The notes beneath the pieces are model-generated. The model had not been told where the DNA came from and made no database searches. It saw only the letters and a list, made by a program, of their open reading frames with translations. 64,000 nucleotides of DNA from Allosalinactinospora lopnorensis (GTDB lineage Bacteria; Actinomycetota; Actinomycetes; Streptosporangiales; Streptosporangiaceae). Shown here piece after piece: positions 6,945-31,151 of this stretch (position 1 is its first letter; each line of letters starts with the position of its first letter). The DNA lies in assembly GCF_000981225.1 (NCBI RefSeq), contig NZ_LAJC01000002.1:1-64000 (forward strand), in the 5' to 3' direction. The position numbers were made by a program, and so were the translations under genes.

Positions 6945-7774
6945 ATGACGACGGTCCCGGATGTCACACTCAATAACGGTGTGCGGATCCCGCAATTGGG
7001 CCTCGGAGTCTGGCAGGTGGACGCCGGCGACGTTGTCGACGTCGTCCGCACGGCTATTGAGACCGGGTACCGGAGCATCGACACCGCAGCCGCCTACGAC
7101 AACGAAGAGGGCGTCGGCGAGGCGATCCGGGCGTCCGGGGTGAACCGAGACGAACTGTTCGTGACGTCGAAGCTGTGGAACGGCGATCACGGATACGACT
7201 CCGCGCTGCGCGCTTTCGACGCCACGATGGAGCGCCTCAAGCTGGAACGCCTCGACCTGTACCTGATCCACTGGCCGCTCCCGATGCACGACAGGTACGT
7301 CAGTACCTGGAAGGCGCTTGAGCGCCTCTACGTCGAAGGGCGCGTCCGCGCCATCGGCGTGTCCAACTTCCAGGAGTCGCACCTGCAGCGCCTCATGGAC
7401 GAGGGCGGGATCGTGCCGACGGTCAACCAGGTCGAGCTGCACCCCCGTCTCACCCAGGCGGCGCTGCGCGGATTCCATGCGGAGCACAAGATCGCCACCG
7501 AGGCCTGGAGCCCGCTGGGCCAGGGCAAGCTGCTGAACGAGCCGACGCTGACCAAGCTGGCCGACGCTACGGGAAGACGCCGGCGCAGGTGATCCTGCGG
7601 TGGCACCTGCAGGTCGGCAACATCGTCATCCCCAAGTCGGTCACCCCTGAGCGCATCCGCTCCAACTTCGACGTCTTCGACTTCGAGCTGGCCAGCGGTG
7701 ACGTCGACGCGATATCCGGGCTCAACGCCGATCAGCGTTTCGGCCCCCACCCCGACACGCTGGACACGGCATAA
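6945..7774 (+). CDS. aldo/keto reductase, 2,5-diketo-D-gluconate reductase type (one frameshift)
   Basis: An NADPH-dependent carbonyl reductase with a TIM barrel. It begins [20 protein letters not shown] with ribosome site GGGGAGAGAAC. The AKR signatures are [20 protein letters not shown] (catalytic Asp and Tyr), the catalytic Lys in [18 protein letters not shown] (catalytic His) and [10 protein letters not shown]. The frame breaks at about 7567 (LTKLADA, then a missing base) and resumes as [14 protein letters not shown] and the NADP-binding [14 protein letters not shown]. Repair gives 276 aa, the family norm. The break fits loss of one base in a GCC Ala codon. A strong hairpin terminator follows the stop. 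Confidence 0.9.
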
Positions 7775-7792
7775 CCGATCGGACCGAACACC

Positions 7793-7826
7793 GTAGCGGC
7801 CCGCTCCCAAAGGAGCGGGCCGCTAC
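7793..7826. terminator. bidirectional hairpin terminator
   Basis: A perfect 15-bp stem (GTAGCGGCCCGCTCC at 7793-7807, pairing with 7812-7826) encloses a 4-base loop. It lies between the convergent aldo/keto reductase and the small membrane protein, so it can serve both. Confidence 0.85.
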
Positions 7827-7843
7827 GTGCTACGGCCGGTCGC

Positions 7844-26017: not shown

Positions 26018-26429
26018 GCGCGCTCCTCTCAACGGCTGTCCCGGCAAAATACAGCTCCCCGCGGTCCTGCCGCACCGCTGATGCCGGCACGTCCGTCGGA
26101 GAGTCGAAAAGGATCCGGCTGCGGCCGCGCCTTCGCCCGGGCCCGTACGGTCCTGTCCGCTGAGCAGGGCGTGCGGCGGAGCGGTGCTGATCCTCTGGGC
26201 GGACGGCGGGAGCGCACCCTGCTCACAGGGGGAGGAGGTCGGAGGAGAGAAACCGGCGTCTCATAGGGTGGAGGGTGTGACGGCAACCACGCTGGGGCCG
26301 TCCGCCTGAAAGAACGAGACGCTGCGCGCTGACGCCGGAGGGGTGACGGGGGCCACGGGCTGGCCGTCGTCGTTGACGTGTCCGCACCGTGCTGCAGCTG
26401 GACTGCCGCCGAAATGGGAGGTGACGCCT
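26018..26429. other. gene-free leader region upstream of moaA
   Basis: About 410 bases hold promoters for the divergent lipase and moaA genes. The 120 bases before moaA are GC-rich and could fold, but I cannot match them to a molybdenum-cofactor riboswitch or any other known leader. Confidence 0.35.
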
Positions 26430-27419
26430 GTGCTGACCGACTCTTACGGGCGAGTGGCCACCGATCTGAGAGTTTCACTCACGGACCGCTGCAACCTGCG
26501 GTGCACGTACTGTATGCCCCCTGAGGGGCTCGAATGGCTGCCCAAGCCCGAGCTGCTCACCGACGAGGAGCTCAACCGGCTGATCCGTATCGGCGTGACC
26601 AGGCTGGGGATCACGGAGGTCCGGTTCACCGGAGGCGAACCGCTGCTCCGCCGCGGGCTGCCGGAGATCGTAGCCGCGGCCGCGGCGCTCGACCCGCGCC
26701 CGAAGACCGCTTTGACCACCAACGGCATCGGGCTCTCCCGCGTTGCCCCCTCTCTGGCCGAGGCCGGACTCAACCGGGTGAACGTCTCGCTGGACACCCT
26801 GCGTCCCGACGTCTTCGAGAAACTGGCGCGACGCCGCCGGCTCCACGACGTACTGGAGGGGCTGGCCGGAGCTGCCGCCGCGGGGCTCATCCCCGTCAAG
26901 GTCAACACGGTGCTCATGCGGGACATCAACGACTCCGAGGCGCCCGATCTGCTGCGCTACTGTCTGGACCACGGCTACCAGCTCCGCTTCATCGAGCAGA
27001 TGCCGCTGGACGCCCAGCACGGCTGGCGGCGCGACACCATGATCACCGCTGACGAGATCCTCGACCGGCTCAGTGCCGTCTTCGACCTGGAGGCCGCCGA
27101 CGCCTCTACGCGGGGCAGCGCGCCGGCCGAACTGTTCTACGTGGACGGCGGCCCCGCCACGGTCGGTGTGATCGGATCGGTCACCCGCCCGTTCTGCGGC
27201 GCCTGCGACCGGGTCCGGCTCACCGCTGATGGCCAGATCCGGAACTGCCTGTTCGCCCGGGAGGAGTCCGACCTGCGGCCTCTGCTGCGCGAGGGCGGTA
27301 CCGACGAGGAGATCGCCGAGCGCTGGCGCGCCGCTATCGCGACCAAGATGCCCGGCCACGGCATCAACGACCCCAGTTTCCTGCAGCCGGCCCGCCCGAT
27401 GTCGGCGATCGGCGGATAG
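26430..27419 (+). CDS. moaA: GTP 3',8-cyclase MoaA
   Basis: A 329-aa radical SAM enzyme for the first step of molybdenum cofactor synthesis, turning GTP into 3',8-cyclo-7,8-dihydro-GTP together with MoaC. GTG 26430 is chosen because GGGAGGTGA lies 5-6 bases upstream. The SAM [4Fe-4S] cysteines are Cys21, Cys25 and Cys28 (DRCNLRCTYC). The second cluster is in FCGACDRVRLTADGQIRNC (about residues 256, 259 and 273). The essential C-terminal Gly-Gly is present (MSAIGG). VRFTGGEPLLRRG and TTNGIGL are also standard. No other moa gene is in the window; a strong hairpin follows. Confidence 0.96.
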   Translation: MLTDSYGRVATDLRVSLTDRCNLRCTYCMPPEGLEWLPKPELLTDEELNRLIRIGVTRLGITEVRFTGGEPLLRRGLPEIVAAAAALDPRPKTALTTNGIGLSRVAPSLAEAGLNRVNVSLDTLRPDVFEKLARRRRLHDVLEGLAGAAAAGLIPVKVNTVLMRDINDSEAPDLLRYCLDHGYQLRFIEQMPLDAQHGWRRDTMITADEILDRLSAVFDLEAADASTRGSAPAELFYVDGGPATVGVIGSVTRPFCGACDRVRLTADGQIRNCLFAREESDLRPLLREGGTDEEIAERWRAAIATKMPGHGINDPSFLQPARPMSAIGG

Positions 27420-27426
27420 CGGAGGC

Positions 27427-27452
27427 GGAGCGGGCGGTCCGCCGCCCGCTCC
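27427..27452 (+). terminator. hairpin terminator after moaA
   Basis: A perfect 11-bp stem (GGAGCGGGCGG at 27427-27437, pairing with 27442-27452) with a 4-base loop, eight bases after the stop codon. Confidence 0.8.
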
Positions 27453-27576
27453 GGTTCTGTCCCAGGGGCACTCAGCGCGGAAAACCGGTTGCCGCAGTGG
27501 CGCCGCGTCTGGCTTCATAACGGGGCGCGGGCGGAGGAGCGCCGCGCGAGTCGCTCTCTGGGGATGGAGGTGCCCT

Positions 27577-28763
27577 GTGCCGTACACCGAAGCGGCCGGC
27601 GCCCGCGTGCCGATCCGGATGTGGGCCGACCCGCAGACCGTCGAGTCCGCGGCCATGGACCAGCTCCGCAACGTCACCCGGCTGCCCTGGGTGCACGGCC
27701 TGGCCGTGGTGCCTGATGTGCACTATGGCAAGGGCGCCACTGCCGGCTCGGTGATCGCCATGCGGGACGCGGTGTCCCCGGCCGCGGTCGGAGTCGACAT
27801 CGGCTGCGGAATGACCGCGGTCAGGTCCACCCTCAAGACCGAGGATCTGCCCGAGGACCTGGGGAAGCTGCGTTCCGGGCTGGAGAAGGCGATCCCGGTG
27901 GGATACCAGTCGCACCGGACACCGGTCGACCCCCGTCGGATCCACGGGCTGAAGACGGCCGACTGGGACGGGTTCTGGGACCGCTTCGAGCATCTGGCCC
28001 CGGCCGTGCGCCACCGGAGGCAGCGCGCCGCCAACCAGATCGGTACGCTCGGCGGCGGCAACCATTTCCTGGAGGTCTGCCTGGACGGCGGTGGAACCGT
28101 ATGGGTGATCCTGCATTCGGGATCGCGCAACATCGGCAAGGAACTCGCCGAATACCACATCGAGCAGGCCCGCAAGCTGCCGCACAACCAGGACCTGCCC
28201 GACCGCGATCTGGCGGTGTTCGTCGCCGGCACCCCCGAGATGGAGGCCTACCGCCGCGACCTGTTCTGGGCCCAGGAGTACGCGCGTCGCAACCGCGACG
28301 TGATGATGGGCCTGGCCTGCGACGTGCTGCGCAAGATGTTCCCCCGGGTGCGCTTCGAGCAGTGGATCTCCTGCCACCACAACTACGTGGCGGAGGAGAG
28401 CTACGACGGGGTGGACGTCCTGGTCACGCGCAAGGGCGCCATCCGGGCCGGTCAGGGGGACCTGGGGATCATCCCCGGGTCCATGGCGACCGGCAGCTAC
28501 ATTGTGCGGGGCTGGGCAACCGGCTCTCGTTCGACTCCGCCTCGCACGGGGCGGGCCGGAGGATGAGCCGGAGCAGGGCGAAGCGGACCTTCACCGAGGC
28601 AGACCTCGTCGAGCAGACCAAGGGTGTCGAATGCCGCAAGGACACCGGGGTGCTGGACGAGATCCCCGCCGCCTACAAGGACCTGTCCGAAGTGATCGCG
28701 GCCCAGGCCGACCTGGTCGAGGTCGTCGCGCACCTGCGCCAGGTCGTCTGCGTGAAGGGATAG
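27577..28763 (+). CDS. rtcB: RtcB family RNA ligase (one frameshift)
   Basis: A GTP- and Mn-dependent ligase that joins 2',3'-cyclic phosphate or 3'-phosphate RNA ends to 5'-OH ends, for RNA repair. GTG 27577 follows GATGGAGG. Motifs are VVPDVHYGKGATAGSVIA, GVDIGCGMTAV (metal Cys near 76), GTLGGGNHFLEV, ILHSGSRNIGKEL and the guanylated His in SASHGAGRRMSR near residue 323. The frame breaks at about 28511 (YIVRG, then GNRLSFDSASHGAG in the next frame). One missing base restores 395 aa, close to E. coli RtcB. The active site lies after the break, so the gene would be dead if the shift were real. Confidence 0.92.
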
Positions 28764-28823
28764 GAACGCCGCTCCGGCCGCGGTGCGGCCCGGCTCGGTA
28801 CGCGCGCCGGCGAGCGGTGCGGA

Positions 28824-29042
28824 TCACCCGTCGAACTCGGTGAGCGGCACGCTCTCCAGCAGGAAGCCGCGTATGCCGAGGAACTCCGCCAGGTATTCGC
28901 GGTGCTCGTCGCAGGCCAGCCAGGTCTTGCGCCGCTCGGGGGTGTGCACCTTGGGGTTGTTCCACACCAGGACCCACGTGGCCGGGGCGCGGCACTCTCT
29001 GCGCGAGCAGTGCACGGGCTCGTCGGTGTCGTTGTCGCTCAT
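28824..29042 (-). CDS. small Cys/His protein, possible zinc-binding
   Basis: A 72-aa protein starting MSDNDTDEPVHCSRRECRAP. The cysteines in HCSRREC and the downstream ACDEHREYLAEFLG could form a C-C-C-H zinc site. The central WVLVWNNPKVHTPERRKTW stretch suggests a small beta sheet. Proteins of this kind are widespread in actinobacteria without known function. It is convergent with rtcB, and the 6C RNA gene lies upstream on the same strand. Confidence 0.7.
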   Translation of the reverse strand: MSDNDTDEPVHCSRRECRAPATWVLVWNNPKVHTPERRKTWLACDEHREYLAEFLGIRGFLLESVPLTEFDG

Positions 29043-29135
29043 GGATGGCCCCCTAGAACGGCCGGCCTGCTCAGGTCATCGGATGGTCGTGTATCCGTTG
29101 TGGTAATGCGAAGGCGACCACGAACGCAACCAATG

Positions 29136-29250
29136 AAAAAGCGACGCCGGGTGGCTACGGGGGCAAACCACCCGACGTCGCGCACGATGTTCCGACGGGG
29201 GCTCGAAACATCGGCCTAGCGCTCCGACGGGGGACCGAAGCGCTAGATTC
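29136..29250 (-). ncRNA. 6C RNA (C-rich hairpin loop small RNA)
   Basis: Three consecutive stem-loops are transcribed toward lower coordinates. Hairpin 1 spans 29246-29216 (CTAGCGCT stem, loop with TCCCCCGTC). Hairpin 2 spans 29213-29185 (CGATGTT stem, loop GCCCCCGTCGG). Hairpin 3 spans 29181-29141 (a stem of 13-14 pairs with loop TTTGCCCCCGTAG), followed directly by T5. Each loop carries a run of five C followed by GT. Two stem-loops with C-rich loops before a terminator is the defining layout of the actinobacterial 6C RNA (B11 in mycobacteria), a small RNA that pairs through its C-rich loops. The terminator hairpin also carrying the C loop is notable. Confidence 0.85.
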
Positions 29251-29251
29251 C

Positions 29252-29283
29252 AATGTACACCGCTCCTCCCCCGTATACGTCAA
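29252..29283 (-). promoter_or_regulatory. promoter of the 6C RNA
   Basis: On the minus strand TTGACG (29283-29278) is followed after 18-20 bases by TGTACATT (29259-29252), a reasonable -35 and -10 pair. Transcription would start a few bases before the first hairpin. Confidence 0.55.
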
Positions 29284-29511
29284 GAGCCGATTACGACGTG
29301 ATCTCGGGACCGCCCTGCGCGAAGCGGCGCTTATGCCCCCCGAACGGGGAGGATCCGGTAGGCGCCCGCCGGCGGGACAGACCCGGGGGCGCCCAGTCGC
29401 CGGGCAAAGAACGGGTAATACGCACGCCAGGACGCGGTCCCGCTGTCTCCGATTGACGCCGGAGTGTCGCGGGAAGTGGGCCAACAGAGCCGACAAGAAG
29501 GGAACCGCGCT
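29284..29511. other. intergenic region between 6C RNA and dodecin
   Basis: About 230 bases carrying the divergent promoters. No further gene or clear operator is seen. Confidence 0.35.
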
Positions 29512-29727
29512 ATGAACGACCACACCTACCGCGTCACCGAGATCGTGGGCACCTCACCCGAGGGCGTGGACCAGGCCATCCACAACGGCATCGAACGGGC
29601 CTCCGCCACGCTCCGCGGACTGGACTGGTTCGAGGTGACCCAGATCCGCGGCCACCTGGAGAACGGGGAGATAGCCCACTACCAGGTGGGGATGAAGGTG
29701 GGTTTTCGGCTGGAGGAGACCTCCTGA
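29512..29727 (+). CDS. dodecin family flavin-binding protein
   Basis: A 71-aa protein starting MNDHTYRVTEIVGTSPEGVD. Dodecins assemble as hollow dodecamers that store FMN or riboflavin-type flavins. The beta-alpha-beta-beta pattern is clear: YRVTEIVGTS, AIHNGIERASATLRGLDWFE, TQIRGHLENGEIAHYQVGMKVGFRLEE. The Trp in LDWFE stacks on the flavin and the Gln-containing strand is present. The length matches the mycobacterial protein. It is convergent with tldE, with only 15 bases between stops. Confidence 0.93.
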   Translation: MNDHTYRVTEIVGTSPEGVDQAIHNGIERASATLRGLDWFEVTQIRGHLENGEIAHYQVGMKVGFRLEETS

Positions 29728-29742
29728 ACTCCCGGATCGGGC

Positions 29743-31151
29743 TCAGGAGGCCTGGCTGACGGTCGACATGTTAAAGTCCGGGATCCGCATCGGCGGCATA
29801 GCGGTGCGCGGGAAGTAATCACCCACCTCCCGCGAGAGCCCGGGAACGGTGGCTCCCGCCTCGGTGGCGCGCTCCAGCAGGCTCACCGGGGACTCGTTGA
29901 ACCGGAAGTTGTTCACCGCCCCCGTGACCTCGCCGTCCTCCACCAGGTAGACGCCGTCGCGGGTGAGTCCGGTCAGCAGCAGCGTCTGCGGGTCGACCGT
30001 GCGGATGTACCACAGACAGGTCAGCAGCAGGCCGCGTTCGGTGCCGGCGATCATGTCGTCCAGTGCCGCGCCCGCCCCCGGCTGCTCCAGGACCAAATTG
30101 TCCACGTGGGCCGTGGCCGCGAGCCCGGTCAGCTCCGCGGAGTGGCGGGTCTGGCGCAGCGCCGCCAGCTCGCCACCGGAGAGCCAGTGGGTGCGGCGCA
30201 GCGGCAGCCCGTTGTCGAACGCCGTGAAATCGCGCCCGGGGGCCGTGGAGAGGACGAACGGAGCGCACTCCAGGCCCTGCTCCGCGGGGTCGCTGCGCAG
30301 GTCCAGCGGGAGCGCCGAGAGCCGCTCGCCGACCCGGGTCCCGCCCTTGCCCGAGGAGAACACCGTGCGCCCCTCCGCGGCGTCGCGCGCGCCGGCGTTC
30401 CAGTAGAGCGTCACCATCATGTCGGCCACGGCCTCCGGCGGGAGCAGGGTCTCGTACCGCCCGGCGGGCAGCTCCACGGTGCGGCGCGCCCACCCCATGC
30501 GCCGGAACAGCTCGGCGTCGAGCGTTTCGGTGTCGATGTCGGTGAAGTCGCGGGTGGCCCGGCCGACCCAGGTGGAGTGGCCGCCGCCGGTACCGGGCGT
30601 CGCCGACTTGGCGTTCAGCTCGACGCTCCCGCTCGGCTGGTCGTGGCGCAACCGGAGCCCGGTGGAGCTGCCGAAGAACGTGGAGGTCACCGTGTGCTCG
30701 GCATACCCGTAGAGCAGGTGGCCCGCCGCCTCCCTGCGCTCGAAGGCCCTTCCCAGCCCCGGTGCGAACCCGGAGAACACCGAGATATCCGTGCTCGCGG
30801 GGGCGGCGTCCCACTCTCCGCCGGAGCCCGCGGACTCCGGGGTGAGAAGCGGCCGGGCGTCCTCGGAGGGGACGGCGTCGCGGCTCGCGGTCTCCGCGGC
30901 GCGCACCAGGTCCTCCAGCTCCTCGTCGCGAAGCCCGCTTCGTTCCACGACGCCCGCGGCGGCCCCTGGCCGCTCTCCGAGAGCGCGATGACCGTGACCG
31001 TGCGTCCCTGGGTGACGCCGTTGGTCGTCAGCGAGTTCCCGGCCCAGCGCAGGTTGGCCCTGCTCTCCTGCTGGACCAGCACCATGCAGGCGTCGGCGCG
31101 GGAGAGTTCCAGTGCCCGTTCCACAACGGACTGGGGGGACGACTGATTCAA
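29743..31151 (-). CDS. tldE: TldE/PmbA-type subunit of the TldD/TldE protease (one frameshift)
   Basis: The partner of TldD; the heterodimer is a metalloprotease that trims unfolded peptides such as microcin precursors or antitoxins. The start is a TTG at 31151 overlapping the tldD stop, with CAGGAGG upstream, so the two are translationally coupled. The frame breaks at about 30960 (VIALSESGQG, then VVERSGLRDEELEDLV in the next frame); one missing base restores 469 aa. The C-terminal half shows GRDFTAFDNGLPL, LVLEQPGAGAALDDMI, LLTCLWYIRTVDPQTLLLTG and VTGAVNNFRFNESPVSLL, typical of PmbA/TldE. It lacks the HExxxH motif, as expected for the non-catalytic subunit. Confidence 0.88.

Follow-up and report, generated by a model that had tools for sequence, protein, structure and literature searches.

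The RNA element, its conservation and its promoter region

To our knowledge, the actinobacterial class has few small RNAs with established class-wide conservation, the best known of them being 6C. The locus studied here lies in a stretch of 64,000 nt that was analysed as a whole (the window). It raises the question of whether the interval between a gene for a small Cys/His-rich protein and the dodecin gene encodes a small RNA and, if so, whether this RNA is a 6C RNA (RF01066), as an earlier note on this DNA had claimed. The features discussed below are the following, in window coordinates.

29136-29249, minus strand: predicted small RNA of about 110 nt, with three hairpins and a U5 tail; its 5' end is predicted
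29216-29246, minus strand: hairpin 1, loop UCCCCCG(U), the loop identical in 34 of 35 orthologs
29182-29215, minus strand: hairpin 2, loop GCCCCCG(U), the loop identical in 34 of 35 orthologs
29141-29181, minus strand: hairpin 3, the terminator stem, loop UGCCCCCG(U), identical in 35 of 35 orthologs; the most conserved element
29136-29140, minus strand: T5 tract, TTTTT directly 3' of hairpin 3
29252-29257, minus strand: putative -10 element TACATT; TAnnnT in 35 of 35 upstream regions
29278-29283, minus strand: putative -35 element TTGACG, 20 nt from the -10 element; TCTTGA[CT] in each of the 35 upstream regions
29290-29305, minus strand: GTAAT and GAGAT boxes, at distances of 11 and 22 nt on the 5' side of TTGAC; may be the site of a regulator
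29512-29727, plus strand: dodecin gene (PF07311, E 3.4e-29), divergent from the RNA
28824-29042, minus strand: Cys/His-rich ORF of 72 aa, the next gene on the same strand, separate from the RNA

The minus strand from 29250 to 29136 folded into three consecutive hairpins with a free energy of -70.6 kcal/mol, a stability that none of 200 dinucleotide shuffles reached (mean -41.3, sd 3.3; z -8.8); the plus strand of 29136-29250 folded more weakly (-54.9 kcal/mol, z -3.8). All three loops carry five C followed by GU. The three minus-strand C-loop hairpins described in the earlier note are thus confirmed by the fold and by the loop sequences. So is its reading of the third one as a terminator stem (29181-29141) followed by T5 (29140-29136), and the genes flanking the RNA are the Cys/His ORF and dodecin, as it had named them.

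A DNA search of 60 relatives gave strong matches (E<=3.5e-14) in 36 of the 37 genomes of the same family, the own genome included, and in one genome of a neighbouring family. Among 16 named loci compared, the window was nearest by local DNA identity to Nocardiopsis trehalosi and Marinitenerispora sediminis (77%), and since these are the nearest named loci, the family of the matched relatives is probably Streptosporangiaceae in the GTDB sense. We aligned 35 complete sequences, 34 from the same family plus L034 from the neighbouring-family genome G037; two loci cut by contig ends (L037 and L038) and three with a form other than the three-hairpin one (L039-L041) were left out. In these 35 orthologs, 99.9% of the pair cells were kept on the consensus structure and two-sided changes were found in 16 of the 39 pairs, against a mean of 5.6 in 500 shuffles, none of which reached 16; controls with a shifted structure were only 33-55% paired. 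As to the strand, the minus-strand RNA has G-U in 171 of the 1364 pair cells and A-C in none; read from the other strand, those G-U cells would turn into A-C mismatches, which places the RNA on the minus strand.

Column identity in the alignment was 99.6, 99.6 and 100% in loops 1, 2 and 3, 93% in paired columns and 67% in linkers; in one locus (L004), loops 1 and 2 each have four C. The stem of hairpin 3 is similar across families, with 11 of its 18 pairs invariant in the 35 orthologs, and the T tract that follows is weak in many relatives. Differences of one or two bases in the length of the linkers between the hairpins speak against a coding region. Taken together, the three hairpins with their C-loops have the appearance of a genuine and conserved small RNA.

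We infer that transcription would start just upstream of hairpin 1, from a promoter of the RNA's own. The TAnnnT box ends a few bases before hairpin 1, and the spacer between the putative -35 and -10 elements is 20 nt in 34 loci and 21 nt in one, compared with the usual 16-18 nt. A simple consensus scan of 28800-29750 returned no promoter and no terminator; its promoter rule required a spacer of 16-18 nt, and the site at the RNA has 20 nt. Further upstream, the 5-mer nTRAY is present 11 nt from TTGAC in 33 of 35 loci and GAGAY 22 nt from it in 27 of 35. This is an 11-bp period of the kind used by OmpR-type regulators, and judging from the sequence these boxes look like a response-regulator site overlapping the -35 element. 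As a separate observation, the promoter spacer holds, at 29265-29274 (minus strand), ACGGGGGAGG, which is complementary to the RNA's own loops and lies upstream of the predicted start; G-runs in this spacer recur in many relatives, not in all.

Genomic context

The RNA has its place, in fixed orientation, between dodecin/tldE and moaA, and this order is usually kept in relatives. Along the direction of the RNA, the upstream region holds tldD/tldE, which share its strand, and, where present, dodecin, which is on the opposite strand; downstream comes moaA, likewise on the opposite strand. Pfam domains in the window identified moaA, rtcB, dodecin, tldE and tldD, the last two beyond dodecin; moaA, at 26343 (+), is convergent with the RNA, and rtcB lies between moaA and the Cys/His gene. 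The 72-aa Cys/His ORF had no Pfam or NCBIfam match. A synteny count over 55 family loci, from which seven duplicate loci had been removed and in which L021 and L038 were not included, showed dodecin as the divergent neighbour in 40; two of the 55 have less than 500 nt of downstream sequence. A scan with a DNA pattern yielded at least 118 loci, 80 of them titled, and where the downstream sequence extends to 1.7 kb or more (90 loci), moaA was on the opposite strand within 2.7 kb in 82, among the matches listed.

Concerning the neighbouring rtcB, the RtcB match in ORF 27229-28566 (+) ends early, covering profile positions 1-340 of 426, and an RtcB-like C-terminal stretch apparently continues in another frame, in ORF 28101-28763 (+). 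There is an apparent rtcB frameshift at about 28480-28763 (+), either real or from the assembly.

Covariance models and distribution

Two covariance models were built, R1 for the three-hairpin form and R2 for the two-hairpin form. R1, which has the window among its training rows, scored it at 120.4 bits. In a class sample of 296 genomes, R1 matched all 28 same-family genomes (7 of which had contributed training rows) at E<=3.2e-17 and a total of 82 genomes at E<=0.01, more weakly outside the same family. Twenty of the weaker matches were retrieved, and most were at the same locus; L087, L088 and L089 had none of the neighbour genes. This shared position and orientation is evidence that does not depend on the models.

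R2 was trained on 22 sequences, none from the same family, that had themselves been found with R1 or with the DNA pattern. They are what was left of 27 aligned rows after dropping L073 and L074, whose first hairpin has no C-run, and the near duplicates L078, L082 and L084; L072, L085 and L089 were not among the rows extracted. R2, thus trained outside the bacterial family of the window, matched the window at 29222-29135, that is, at hairpins 2 and 3, with 55.3 bits and an E of 8.6e-7 in the genome, where this was its best match. Among 394 class genomes, 145 were matched at E<=1e-3 and 127 at E<=1e-5, counts that are partly circular in that 16 of the 22 training rows come from genomes also searched and most of these 16 were first found with R1. 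All 41 same-family genomes were matched, and in a sample of the phylum there were matches in 9 of 246 genomes, all nine of the same class. R2 found 35 of the nearest 37 family genomes at E<=0.01. It missed G010, where a contig end cuts the RNA, and G029, an assembly of 960 contigs with a completeness of 84%. Titled carriers among the matches listed were Streptomyces, Kitasatospora, Streptacidiphilus, Actinacidiphila, Jiangella, Nonomuraea, Microbispora, Marinitenerispora and Nocardiopsis.

Two candidate second copies were rejected. The only other R2 match in the own genome (C15:18936-19025, E 7e-4) is a terminator-like hairpin with the loop CCCAUC and no C5GU, and a stretch of the window at 7729-7837 (+), which R1 scored at 24.2 bits (E 0.0025) and R2, on part of it, at E 0.33, has the hairpin loop CCAAAG and no C-run. 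Counts were taken at E<=1e-5 because matches near E 1e-3 are untrustworthy.

Relation to 6C RNA

The claim that the element is a 6C RNA did not hold. An Rfam 15 scan of the whole 64,000-nt window at gathering scores gave no match, and a permissive scan of 28900-29520 up to E 10 did not return RF01066; the two matches that it did return, L19_leader and mir-5985, were both far below their cut-offs. RF01066 matched the own genome once, on contig C13, with 54.2 bits against a gathering cut-off of 47 bits that the RNA beside dodecin does not reach, and this 6C element is in turn matched by neither R1 nor R2. A poor covariance score had been named in the earlier note as evidence against its reading, and a poor score is what was found. 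Eight relative loci (L005, L013, L020, L029, L034, L039, L040 and L041) scanned with Rfam at E<=1 gave nothing at the new RNA and one chance match elsewhere in L013, and seven further relative loci gave no match at gathering score. On these grounds, we rejected membership in 6C.

The RF01066 consensus has two hairpins with six-C loops, and here there are three hairpins with five C each. The C-rich loop in the 3' terminator hairpin, present here as hairpin 3 plus T5, had been put forward as a departure from 6C; however, it is already known for B11, the C-rich terminator loop being reported as the seed in M. marinum (PMC12395582).

The two RNAs also differ in their distribution. A 6C match at E<=0.01 was found in 154 of the 296 genomes of the class sample, in 112 of them above the cut-off. 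Both RNAs were present in 88 genomes, the R2 RNA only in 30 and 6C only in 66, a count that uses R2 matches at E<=1e-3 and 6C matches at E<=0.01 and assumes that the two samples of 296 genomes are identical, genomes first met in the search of 394 being taken as outside. In the pairs compared (G000, which is the own genome, G057, G079, G097, G099, G164 and G212), 6C and the new RNA are at different places. In one genus (g60), the eight sampled genomes all carried the new RNA and none had 6C at E 0.01, and the other 20 sampled same-family genomes all had a 6C match; the best DNA matches of the g60 loci are named Nocardiopsis loci (78-89%). By computation, then, the RNA beside dodecin is separate from 6C, and it looks like a family of similar design that is so far unlisted.

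Proposed action and alternative explanations

We consider it fairly likely that the element is a stand-alone regulatory small RNA with its own promoter, the C-loops of which would pair with G-rich start regions and block translation in a 6C/B11-like manner. Hairpin 3 would act as an intrinsic terminator and end the RNA. The near-invariant CCCCCGU loops, held open on strong stems, would serve as seeds and pair with ACGGGGG-like tracts at or near the ribosome-binding sites of mRNAs encoded elsewhere, and this pairing would block translation as 6C/B11 does with its C-loops. With three hairpins here as against two in most relatives of the class, there would be one extra seed. According to PMC10470900, either loop of M. 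abscessus B11 alone represses a reporter with six G in its 5' UTR, and in that source and in PMC12395582 the B11 loops are reported to bind G-tracts near start codons. Of the earlier reading, a minus-strand small RNA with three C-loops, the last of them in the terminator, and a plausibly 6C-like action are thus retained, and the 6C identity is given up.

The neighbourhood of the Cys/His gene suggests another explanation, namely that the element is a 5' leader or attenuator of this gene, with a terminator that controls read-through. The gene follows directly downstream on the same strand in the window and lies within 400 nt on the same strand in 102 of the at least 118 pattern-scan loci, which are mostly Streptomyces among the 80 titled; in Streptomyces it often begins shortly after hairpin 3, in many loci some tens of bases 3' of the RNA. 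However, a cis-acting leader would always be upstream of the same gene, and the Cys/His gene adjoins the RNA in only 18 of the 55 family loci. In L148, L172 and L185 the gene is shifted away by 0.6 to 4 kb and the RNA is intact, and the pair cells mentioned above support one structure. Since the RNA is kept where the gene is not adjacent, it is not tied to it; we rejected the leader as the general case, and consider it rather unlikely as an explanation of this element. The mere terminator of a convergent or upstream gene would account for the intrinsic terminator at the 3' end, and in 12 of 12 inspected loci without an adjacent Cys/His gene the best downstream coding frame is convergent (narrowly in some). 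Nevertheless, dodecin is upstream and divergent in the window, so that no adjacent gene reads in, and termination would require neither the two further covarying hairpins nor loops that barely vary nor a conserved promoter, which makes a mere terminator hardly credible.

The remaining alternatives concern the C-loops themselves. A true but divergent 6C RNA with an added hairpin would share the arrangement of C-loop hairpins with a terminator at the end, and both RNAs are found across the class; yet this is very improbable in view of the missing RF01066 match up to E 10, the above-cut-off 6C elsewhere in the same genome, which R1 and R2 miss, and the 88 genomes with both RNAs, at different places in the pairs compared. 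The two could still share a common descent by an old duplication. RsmY/Z-type RNAs titrate an RNA-binding protein, and by analogy the C5 loops and the conserved hairpin 3 could form a multivalent site for such a protein. The three loops are near-identical, and the hairpin 3 stem hardly varies and is alike across families; its sequence is conserved beyond the needs of pairing, so there could be a protein partner. On the other hand, the same loop sequence is required for pairing with G-rich start regions, 6C is said to pair without chaperones, going by the title of Mai et al. 2019, and there is no protein candidate. Titration appears decidedly unlikely to us, and we retain the stand-alone regulatory RNA with pairing C-loops as the preferred reading.

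Candidate targets

Sites complementary to the loops were sought in front of start codons. In three genomes, ACGGGGG-N4-9-ATG occurred at 62, 71 and 73 sites and the reversed pattern at 34, 37 and 26; the latter is a poor control in that G-rich Shine-Dalgarno sequences alone could give the excess. In the own genome, 60 stretches cover 61 of the 62 sites; 26 of the 45 open frames are coding-like by a composition rule, and about a dozen of these 26 candidates look by eye like genuine starts.

Two candidates were traced through relatives, and no family-wide conserved target was found between them. An ORF on contig C81 has ACGGGGG near its start in 3 of 30 loci (the own one, G006 and G010), and an ORF that we take to be inositol-phosphatase-like has it in 1 of 30, the own locus only. 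A third candidate, presumably DUF1540-like, has homologs in 4 of 37 genomes, the own included. The target prediction at start regions that had been suggested thus produced candidate sites in the own genome, and none conserved throughout the family. For the C81 ORF and its orthologs, the three loci with ACGGGGG, which there lies at the ribosome-binding site, are L290, L291 and L293, from three closely related genomes; the other 27 loci lack it, so that this ORF is a candidate target only.

Comparison with known RNAs and number of hairpins

The new RNA resembles 6C/B11 in that it is class-wide and made of consecutive C-loop hairpins, and B11 in having a C-rich loop in the terminator, which in B11 is reported to be the seed for G-tracts near ribosome-binding sites (PMC12395582, PMC10470900). 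Unlike 6C, it fails RF01066, sits at another locus, has C5-GU loops and, in the window, three hairpins. A literature search, with supplementary tables and many journals outside its coverage, returned no report of a small RNA at the dodecin-moaA locus; RNA-seq tables may list a Streptomyces member without naming it. We take the moaA gene of S. coelicolor to be SCO1821. The highly expressed Streptomyces sRNAs scr5583 and scr1434 share C-rich loops with the new RNA, as compared by their description in PMC3765725, and since they are named after their right-flanking genes, they are probably loci other than that of the new RNA. There is a further likeness, also by description, to the RNAIII-type sRNAs of Gram-positive bacteria of another phylum, whose C-rich loops target mRNAs (RNAIII in PMC3765725).

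It is possible, and we propose it tentatively, that 6C is not the only widespread C-loop regulator of the Actinomycetes and that a second one uses CCCCCGU as its seed; this second regulator would have gone from two to three seeds in Streptosporangiaceae and may replace 6C in Nocardiopsis, where no 6C was detected. A second, apparently unlisted C-loop family that is also present in Streptomyces would provide a test of how C-rich seeds are used in GC-rich bacteria, where G-rich stretches abound, and the model can be used for annotating existing Streptomyces RNA-seq data.

Three C-loop hairpins were found in the same-family genomes and in G037, and two in the remaining relatives that were inspected, Streptomyces and Jiangella among them. 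An origin of the third by duplication of hairpin 1 would be a guess: equal pieces of the stems without the loop are 67% (1-2), 56% (1-3) and 60% (2-3) identical, compared with 62, 61 and 58% for shuffled stems of the same pairs, and the stems of hairpins 1 and 2 are too little above the shuffled ones. The RNAs with one, two and three C-loops form a natural series for comparison. In L073 (G093) and L074 (G073), the C-run is kept only in the terminator hairpin and is absent from the first hairpin.
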